Of a stretch of 10,484 nucleotides of DNA, positions 2,552 to 7,137 are shown in pieces (position 1 is the first letter of the stretch; every line of letters begins with the position of its first letter). Below the pieces are notes generated by a model. That model had not been told where the DNA came from. It saw only the letters and a list, made by a program, of their open reading frames with translations, and did not search any database. The position numbers and the translations under genes are program-made. Source of the DNA: a bacterium (GTDB taxonomy: Bacteria; CSSED10-310; JAJRTK01); the NCBI GenBank assembly GCA_024278345.1, contig JAJRTK010000535.1, positions 1 to 10,484 on the forward strand. The letters run 5' to 3'.

Positions 2552-2576
2552 GGCTACCGGCCTGTGCAGGTGGCCG
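2552..2576 (+). promoter_or_regulatory. Possible structured leader of rplU
   Basis: Within the predicted rplU 5' leader, GGCTACC (2552-2558) can pair with GGTGGCC (2569-2575) using one G-U pair and a 10-base loop. A competing stem pairs CGGCC (2558-2562) with GGCCG (2572-2576). The two share bases and cannot coexist. Ribosomal-protein operons, including L21 operons in some bacteria, often have autoregulatory leaders. I did not recognise a known L21-leader consensus here, so the role is inference. Confidence 0.25.
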
Positions 2577-2599
2577 TCGGTGTTCAGAGGAAAAATCCG

Positions 2600-3487
2600 A
2601 TGTTTGCTGTTGTTCAAGCTGGCGGCCGGCAACTCCAGGTCTCGCCTTCCGATATCGTCCGAGTGGACAAGCTGACCGCGGAAGTCGGCTCCGAAATCTC
2701 GCTGGGTCGCGTGCTCTTGCTCAAGACCGACGAGGCGACCCATATTGGGCAGCCCACGGTGGAAAACGCGGAAGTCCGTGCAAAAGTACTCCGCCATGCC
2801 CGGGGCAAGAAGATCAAGGTCTTTTTCTTCCGGCGGCGGAAGGACTCGAAAAAGATGAAAGGCCACCGCCAGGACTTTACCGAGCTTCAAGTGGATGCGT
2901 TTCTCCTTGACGGCGAGGTCATTGGCCGGAGCGCTTTGGAGGAAGCCGCGAAAGATGTTTCGCCGGCGGTGGAAGAAACTGTAGAGGCGCCGGCGGAAGA
3001 AATCCCCTCGGTTGAAGAATCTGTGGCGGAAGAAGTTGTCGCGGTGGCAGTAGAGGCTTCGGAAGAAGAGCCTTCCGTCGAAGAAACCGTGGCCGAAGAA
3101 GCTGTCACGGTGGGAGAAGAGGCTTCGGAAGAGCAGCCGGCTGTAGAAGAAGCCGCCTCCGCCGAAGAAGCCCCGGCGGAAGAAGCTGCCTCCGCCGAAG
3201 AAGCTGCAGTCGAAGAAGCCGTGGCGGAAGAAGCCCCGGCGGAGCAAGCCGCTTCCGTCGAAGAAACCGTGGCCGAAGAAGCTGTCGCGGTGGGAGAAGA
3301 GGCTTCGGGAGAGGCCCCGGCTGTAGAGGCTTCGGAAGAAGCCGCTTCCGTTGGAGAAGCTGTGGTGAAAGATAAACCGTCCGCCGAGCCTGGAGCATCC
3401 ACTGTTGTCCCGAAAAACGAGGACGCTGCTCCAGAGGCTTCTCCGCAAGCCACCGAGAACCATGACTCCGAGTCAGAGAAGGAGTGA
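2600..3487 (+). CDS. rplU: 50S ribosomal protein L21 with long acidic C-terminal extension
   Basis: Residues 1 to about 100 are a normal L21: [14 protein letters not shown] at the start, then the basic stretch [22 protein letters not shown] (two adjoining pieces, about 76-95) that contacts 23S rRNA. Ordinary L21 ends near residue 103; this protein has 295 residues. The tail (about 110-295) is almost all Glu, Ala, Val, Ser and Pro, with no Lys, Arg, His or aromatic residue from 119 to 256, and is surely disordered. Part of it is a 60-residue duplication (around 158-178 and 218-238). The ATG at 2600 is preceded by AGAGGA, nine bases away, and begins exactly where L21 homology begins. rpmA follows after 3 bp. 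L21 sits in the large subunit near L20 and domain I of 23S rRNA. What the tail does is unknown to me. Confidence 0.95.
3072..3327 (+). repeat. 180-nt spaced direct repeat in the rplU tail
   Basis: The 76 bases at 3072-3147 recur at 3252-3327, exactly 180 nt apart, with five mismatches by eye (at 3107, 3129 and 3134-3136 in the first copy). The spacing keeps frame and duplicates a block starting [11 protein letters not shown]. It indicates growth of the acidic tail by in-frame duplication or slippage. Confidence 0.8.
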
Positions 3488-5820: not shown

Positions 5821-5836
5821 AAGGAGGCCCTTTTTG
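5821..5836 (+). promoter_or_regulatory. Consensus Shine-Dalgarno with TTG start of rsfS
   Basis: AAGGAGG, fully complementary to the 16S rRNA 3' end, lies six bases before TTG at 5834. This decides the rsfS start despite the rare initiation codon. Confidence 0.75.
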
Positions 5837-6226
5837 GCAGAAACATTCCCCGCCTTGGAACCGGATGATGGTGACGAGATTCAGGACGATGCCTCTTTGG
5901 TGATGGCTCGTGTTGTTGTCAGTGCAGCCAGGGAACGCGACGGAGAAGATCTTGTCGTGCTCGACATTTCAAAGATTTCGAGCTTTGCCGATTACTTCGT
6001 CTTCATGAGTGCCCAAAACGAAAGGCACGTCAAAGCGCTTGTTGACATCGTTTTAGGCAAAATGCGAGATCTCGGCCACAAGCCACACCATACAGAGGGA
6101 GGAGAAGGCAACCGTTGGGTTCTCATCGACTTTGTCGATGTTGTGGTCCATGTCTTTGTTCGTGAGCTCAGGAATTTTTACAATGTCGAGCGGCTTTGGA
6201 CCGATGCTCCCGAGGTAATGGCGTGA
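5834..6226 (+). CDS. rsfS: Ribosomal silencing factor RsfS
   Basis: A 130-residue RsfS (DUF143/Iojap family) protein. The family binds L14 on the 50S subunit and blocks joining with the 30S, lowering translation in starvation. The core is typical: VVLDISKISSFADYFVFMSA (41-60), NERHVKALVD, then WVLIDFVDVVVHVF (95-108) and RNFYNVERLW (113-122). The first 20 residues are an acidic extension. The start is TTG at 5834. AAGGAGG at 5821-5827 with six bases between leaves little doubt, and the next in-frame ATG (codon 24) would remove the start of the first helix. Its last four bases overlap the GTG start of the next gene, so the two are probably translationally coupled. Confidence 0.93.
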   Translation: MAETFPALEPDDGDEIQDDASLVMARVVVSAARERDGEDLVVLDISKISSFADYFVFMSAQNERHVKALVDIVLGKMRDLGHKPHHTEGGEGNRWVLIDFVDVVVHVFVRELRNFYNVERLWTDAPEVMA

Positions 6227-7137
6227 TCTTCCAGTTCGCCCAGGAACTTGATGAGTTGGGGCTTGCCACAAACGGTGCCGGCCTGACGATTCGGCAACGT
6301 CTTGGCGAGATCCTGGAAGGGCCGCCCTGCTCCGCGTTATTTCTTGGGGAGTGCGGTACTGGGCGGAGCTCCACTCTCGATCTGTTTGTTCGCAAGGCAA
6401 AGGCCCACGGTCGTGTGATCTTGCGCCGATGTGGCCGAGCCTGGCTTTGGTCCCATTCTCGCACCGGCAAGCTGGAGACGGAGCTCTGGCCTCTGCTGGC
6501 GAGCTTGGAGGCGAAACGGGTTACTCTAGCCGTCGATGATGTGGCCGACACGGAGCCCCGGTTCCAAAGGCAACTTCTGGAGGCGGCTGAACGCGCCCAA
6601 CGGGGTCAGGCCATCGACTTTCTTGCCACAGCCCATGTCACCTTTCCGCGGTTGGCGGAACAAGGGCTGTTTTCCAAGGTCCTTTTCGACATTTTCGAGG
6701 GGTGTACGGTGGAATTGCCTACGCTCCGCGCCCAACCGGAAAACATCGAGCCGTTGGTTCTGCGTCTGGTCCAGAAAATTGCCGGCGGGTTCGCCGTGGC
6801 GGCCCCGGGCATTCACCGACAGGCAATGCAGCATCTCCAGGCTTTTAGTTGGCCTGGAAACTTGCGTCAGCTCCGCACTCTTTTGGAGAAGCTGGTTCTC
6901 CAGCACTCCGAGGGGGAGATCACCGCTCACGATCTACCCGGATGGCTCCTCAGTGCTGATTCCTTCGGCCTACTCCAGGCGGCACGTGGGCGGATGAGCC
7001 TGAGAGAACTGGAGCGTCTCTATATCGGCAGCGTTTTGGCCATGACCAGGGGACACAAGAGCAAGGCCGCCGCGATCCTGGGAATCAACCGAAAAACCCT
7101 CGCCTCCAAGATACGGCGTTACAAGATTCCCAGCTAG
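6223..7137 (+). CDS. Degenerate sigma-54 activator-like AAA+ protein with Fis-type HTH
   Basis: A 304-residue protein with the fold order of an NtrC-type enhancer-binding protein but no receiver domain. It keeps a Walker A-like GECGTGRSS (42-50), a Walker B-like VTLAVDD (100-106, second Asp where Glu is usual), VELPTLRAQPENI (163-175), FSWPGNLRQL (208-217) and a C-terminal Fis-type helix-turn-helix (GHKSKAAAILGINRKTLASK, 277-296). The GAFTGA loop that contacts sigma-54 is absent, and the interval between Walker motifs is a few residues shorter than in NtrC. The usual arginine-finger segment (DLYYRLNV-like) reads SKVLFDIFEG (151-160). I infer it cannot activate sigma-54 RNA polymerase and may be a DNA-binding repressor or accessory regulator, perhaps with weak ATP binding. 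The GTG at 6223 overlaps the rsfS stop by 4 bp, with GAGG seven bases upstream. No specific gene name is recognised. Confidence 0.85.
   Translation: MIFQFAQELDELGLATNGAGLTIRQRLGEILEGPPCSALFLGECGTGRSSTLDLFVRKAKAHGRVILRRCGRAWLWSHSRTGKLETELWPLLASLEAKRVTLAVDDVADTEPRFQRQLLEAAERAQRGQAIDFLATAHVTFPRLAEQGLFSKVLFDIFEGCTVELPTLRAQPENIEPLVLRLVQKIAGGFAVAAPGIHRQAMQHLQAFSWPGNLRQLRTLLEKLVLQHSEGEITAHDLPGWLLSADSFGLLQAARGRMSLRELERLYIGSVLAMTRGHKSKAAAILGINRKTLASKIRRYKIPS

Follow-up and report, generated by a model that had tools for sequence, protein, structure and literature searches.

The gene located directly downstream of rsfS in the analyzed stretch of bacterial DNA (10,484 nucleotides, hereafter the window) probably encodes a real and functional regulator, termed X below, which by sequence appears to be a derived, motor-dead member of a family of rsfS-linked proteins. 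The reading that we favor, with a probability of approximately 0.6, is that X is a DNA-binding regulator that needs neither ATP nor sigma-54, is co-translated with the ribosomal silencing factor RsfS, and operates by a logic similar to that of TyrR and VpsR. The features on which this reading is based are collected in Table 1.

Table 1. Location of rsfS, X, and the conserved or degenerate motifs of X in the window.
Feature	Position	Strand	Remarks
rsfS (ribosomal silencing factor), directly 5' of X	5834..6226	+	TTG start, TGA stop; Pfam RsfS 103 bits
X, rsfS-linked pseudo-AAA+/Fis-HTH protein	6223..7137	+	304 aa, GTG start
Overlap of X start with rsfS stop	6223..6226	+	GTGA, 4 bp
Degenerate Walker A	6346..6372	+	GECGTGRSS, Arg for P-loop Lys
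Place of helix 3 and loop L1	6427..6489	+	In-frame 7-residue gap; RAWLWSHSRTGKLETE for ESELFGH-GAFTGA
Degenerate Walker B	6523..6540	+	TLAVDD, Asp for catalytic Glu
Site of second pore loop (L2)	6607..6612	+	L2 removed by 9-residue in-frame gap
Arginine-finger segment	6670..6696	+	FSKVLFDIF for FREDLYFRL, both Arg gone
Lid motif	6850..6873	+	WPGNLRQL, sensor II Arg still there
Fis-type HTH	6994..7125	+	Recognition segment KAAAILGINRKTLASK at 7063-7110

The overlap of the X start with the rsfS stop, pointed out in the first-pass annotation of this DNA, is present as described, and the RsfS domain (PF02410) was matched in the window's own genome. Upstream of rsfS, the window contains tex, rplU, rpmA, obgE, and nadD, and X is followed by yebC, ruvC, ruvA, and ruvB. 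The rplU ORF (window 2564-3487) is unusual in itself, since its L21 domain occupies residues 13-111 of 307 (Pfam) and is followed by a Glu-, Ala-, and Val-rich tail of approximately 195 residues, whereas other L21 ORFs seen in the phylum are 103-126 aa long. The similarity of X to known activators is far above chance (ZraR, 9.8e-16, phmmer against PDB), and a profile built from its own phylum scores it at 99.8 bits. The GC content by codon position is coding-like along all of X and resembles that of the neighbor genes. Since the other frames of this stretch gave zero matches to the X family, X is not a frameshift artefact; a frameshift or misassembly within X was ruled out, as only its own frame matches the family.

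X combines two traits of sigma-54-dependent enhancer-binding proteins, an AAA+ fold with a lid of the NtrC/PspF type (AAA_lid_14, 1.9e-15) and a Fis-type HTH (HTH_8, 7.5e-11), with the absence of L1, L2, intact Walker A and B motifs, and arginine fingers. The Sigma54_activat domain (PF00158), for which the relatives score 202-211 bits, has no match in X even at E<=1, and Sigma54_activ_2 reaches only 18 bits, under its cut-off of 25. The first-pass annotation had noticed the lack of GAFTGA, an altered arginine-finger segment, and Asp for Glu in Walker B, and all three were borne out: the GAFTGA position aligns to GKLETE after the 7-residue gap, SKVLFDIFEG stands for FREDLYFRL, and Walker B ends in DD. 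The same annotation was mistaken in listing GECGTGRSS as an intact landmark, since the P-loop Lys, which is kept in 42 of 43 linked proteins with X as the exception, is replaced by Arg; the removal of L2 was a further loss that it did not mention. The switch Asn is likewise Arg in X, and the sensor II Arg is the only such residue left, although the backbone glycines of the P-loop remain. With none of the four motor motifs, X has the lowest score of all linked proteins. No domain N-terminal to the P-loop was found by Pfam, and the approximately 40 residues in this part hold no receiver or sensor domain.

The window's genome (a 6.06-Mb assembly, 87.9% complete) belongs to a small phylum represented here by eight genomes. 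In five of the seven other genomes, the gene directly 3' of rsfS is the best genome-wide match of X and encodes approximately 315 aa, which makes six genomes of eight with the linked gene, X included; no X-type gene follows rsfS in the other two (G001 and G003). The five orthologs have Walker A and arginine fingers, carry GAFTGA or one of the variants GAFSGA, GAYSGA, and GAFSSA, and have DH or DR in Walker B without exception. A first contig scan with X alone as the query gave no match, whereas a scan with the ortholog alignment retrieved an Acidobacteria contig with the order nadD-rsfS-X-rlmH, in which the linked gene encodes a fully canonical activator and shows an exact ATGA overlap. The gene after rsfS was then read in 88 genomes of Acidobacteriota and in 92 from other phyla. 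A linked gene was found directly after rsfS in 37 of the 88 Acidobacteriota (one further locus, L228, is broken off at a contig end) and was directly adjacent to rsfS in none of the 92. The rsfS linkage, whose conservation the first-pass annotation had proposed to check, is thus conserved across two phyla. Outside both of them, a single genome (G040, locus L294) has an activator near rsfS, approximately 780 bp off on the same strand. An exact start/stop overlap with rsfS was observed for 11 of the 37 Acidobacteriota loci, as well as in G000, G004, and G005. A literature search found no paper on rsfS-linked activators.

The genes downstream of the linked gene vary. In most Acidobacteriota the next gene is rlmH, and in the sister families it is a prepilin-like gene, with ruvX behind it wherever the locus extends that far; the yebC-ruvCAB arrangement is therefore particular to the window's genome. 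The proposed tie of X to yebC, the Holliday-junction genes, and DNA repair is consequently unsupported. The prepilin-like gene (loci L043-L047) has an N_methyl match in G004, and in several sister-family genomes a sigma-70-like TTGAC...TAAT stretch precedes it, as seen by eye.

Phylogenetically, the rsfS-linked proteins other than X form a family of single origin. In a tree that left out X and the most divergent linked sequences and included several other activators from the same genomes, one branch separates 30 linked proteins from 32 other activators with 100/99 support. Taken together, the members of this family deviate from the motor consensus. Strict GAFTGA was found in 14 of 43 linked proteins (20 if conservative variants are counted), the catalytic Walker B Glu also in 14 of 43, and all four motor motifs together in 10 of 43, whereas the switch Asn occurs in only 1 of 42 linked proteins compared with 28 of 37 unlinked activators. 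GAFTDA was not counted as a loss of function, because 5 of the 37 unlinked activators carry it. Many relatives of X thus carry an altered GAFTGA or no longer have the catalytic Glu, even though rpoN is found almost everywhere. One linked protein (L211 in genome G105) has GVATGV for GAFTGA and no Walker B acid, and no rpoN was found in its genome, an assembly of unstated completeness.

The branch of X itself is very long (3.7-5.5 changes per site), and trees that include X fail to assign it to this family. Since X is too long-branched for trees, its membership is argued from the position, the overlap, the best hits, and the HTH. With phmmer, X matches the rsfS-linked proteins from its own phylum best, ahead of the phylum's unlinked activators (p=2e-4). 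The window's genome contains approximately 25 other activator-like proteins, nearly all in long open frames, and X was also considered as a copy of one of these: the position, the best pairwise hits, and the HTH favor the rsfS-linked family, whereas the profile score of X, which is slightly higher with five other activators from its own genome (108.9 bits) than with the five orthologs (101.1 bits), is compatible with a copy. No intact rsfS-type copy was found elsewhere in the 87.9% complete assembly among these activator-like proteins. X is assigned to the rsfS-linked family by its position and HTH, not by a supported branch.

A comparison of its parts indicates that the lineage of X gave up the motor and retained the DNA-binding end. 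Compared with the five phylum orthologs, X reaches an identity of 0.19 over the AAA alpha/beta part, of 0.28 over the lid, and of 0.56 over the HTH. Relative to the Acidobacteriota proteins, the HTH of X is as similar as those of the five orthologs (0.48 vs. 0.49), whereas its AAA alpha/beta part is far less similar (0.21 vs. 0.43). The recognition segment of X shares on average 79% identity with the five orthologs, compared with 49% for unlinked activators, and an RK pair in the recognition helix (INRKT in X) is present in every linked sequence with a readable HTH. Given that the HTH, and above all its recognition segment, is the best conserved part of X, it is very unlikely that X has RsfS or the ribosome, rather than DNA, as its target, as might be expected of a co-translated partner from the stop/start overlap and from the conservation of the linkage across two phyla. 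The predicted model of X (pLDDT 85.9, pTM 0.72) keeps the activator fold and resembles the FleQ, NtrC1, and VpsR domains with Z of approximately 20, although the model is biased toward this fold because the underlying alignment consists of canonical activators.

The same comparison bears on the explanation that X is a decaying remnant of an ancestral rsfS-linked activator, whose sole remaining role would be to let the operon be read. The first-pass annotation had taken intact GAFTGA in close relatives as the mark of a decayed copy, and same-phylum relatives indeed keep GAFTGA intact or conservatively changed, for which reason X is considered derived rather than typical. It had also named the absence of the gene from related genomes, and G001 and G003, representing two sister families, have no such gene after rsfS, but it is present in the five others. 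The extreme divergence of the AAA+ part would likewise be expected under decay. Nevertheless, the 304 codons of X are open despite 219 residue differences from the G004 ortholog, and had all of these been neutral single changes, the chance of encountering no stop would be approximately 7e-5. The two internal gaps preserve the frame, and the codon composition is coding-like. Because the frame is open and the HTH has diverged no faster than those of the orthologs, X is not simply decayed DNA, and we regard decay as unlikely.

The window's genome contains rpoN in full on contig C72, as was to be checked according to the first-pass annotation, and 85 of 90 Acidobacteriota genomes have it as well. 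The loss of sigma-54 therefore does not explain the motif losses of X, and the loss of rpoN was rejected as an explanation for the missing GAFTGA. The sigma-54 DNA-binding domain is matched once more, in part, by a short open frame of 211 aa near a contig end (L002; G000:C491:345-530). With rpoN and many other activator-like proteins in the genome, X could in principle still be a sigma-54 activator of an unusual form; this is scarcely credible for a protein that lacks the catalytic residues as well as the two loops that contact sigma-54, and -24/-12-like sites in the window are no commoner than expected by chance. When the surroundings of rsfS and X were scanned for palindromes in the sister genomes, no convincing shared operator emerged.

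In the favored reading, the AAA+ motor would have turned into a structural scaffold in the lineage of X, and the Fis-type HTH would allow X to bind DNA. X would neither hydrolyze ATP nor contact sigma-54, and its simplest mode of action would be that of a repressor or of a sigma-70-type activator, in the manner of TyrR, VpsR, and Rhodobacter capsulatus NtrC. Since X has no receiver or other sensor domain, its activity probably depends on how much of it is made, an amount that might track that of RsfS through co-transcription and the stop/start overlap. The suggestion of the first-pass annotation that the fold was repurposed as a DNA-binding regulator or an ATP sensor is supported in its first part, as the DNA-binding domain is kept while the sigma-54 loop and the ATPase site are lost; an ATP sensor is disfavored because the P-loop Lys, Walker B Glu, switch Asn, and arginine fingers are lost. 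A related, rather improbable explanation is that X retains the binding of a nucleotide (or of a different small ligand) but not its hydrolysis and that the AAA+ fold serves as a sensor switching DNA binding. It would agree with the retention of the fold, lid, sensor II Arg, and P-loop glycines, and with the requirement of R. capsulatus NtrC for ATP binding but not hydrolysis (PMC10274813); the same four lost elements, including both arginine fingers, speak against it.

At one conserved operon position, the family forms a series that begins with a canonical sigma-54 motor and ends with a DNA-binding protein whose motor is dead, and therefore the purpose of the AAA+ part can be addressed by comparing orthologs. 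The family also points to a probable transcription factor made together with RsfS, in phyla whose ribosome dormancy has received little study. A wider and quite doubtful proposal is that Acidobacteriota and the second, small phylum share an undescribed family of rsfS-coupled regulators that repeatedly shed the motor and pass the RsfS level on to transcription, linking dormancy to expression, with X as the motor-free end state.

Among known systems, the sigma-54 activators of the PspF/NtrC type have the AAA+ fold, lid, and Fis-type HTH in common with X, and the structural check proposed in the first-pass annotation agrees (Z of approximately 20 to NtrC1, with the bias noted above). PspF, like X, has no N-terminal receiver. 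X differs from this type in lacking L1, L2, the P-loop Lys, the Walker B Glu, the arginine fingers, and the PF00158 match. The best matches of the X model among solved structures are Brucella NtrX (5m7n, Z 21.0) and the FleQ central domain (6j7e, Z 20.8); both structures are nucleotide complexes, and both proteins, unlike X, have further domains. Several GAFTGA-less relatives work at sigma-70 promoters, namely TyrR, DhaR, and HupR (PMC3162934), as well as the NtrC proteins of R. capsulatus and Caulobacter and VpsR, which is reported to work without ATP (PMC10274813). These regulators share with X the loss of the sigma-54 loop and the retention of the DNA-binding domain, and by analogy X may work as they do; in contrast to them, X has no N-terminal sensor domain, lacks the P-loop Lys and the arginine fingers as well, and is encoded by a gene linked to rsfS.
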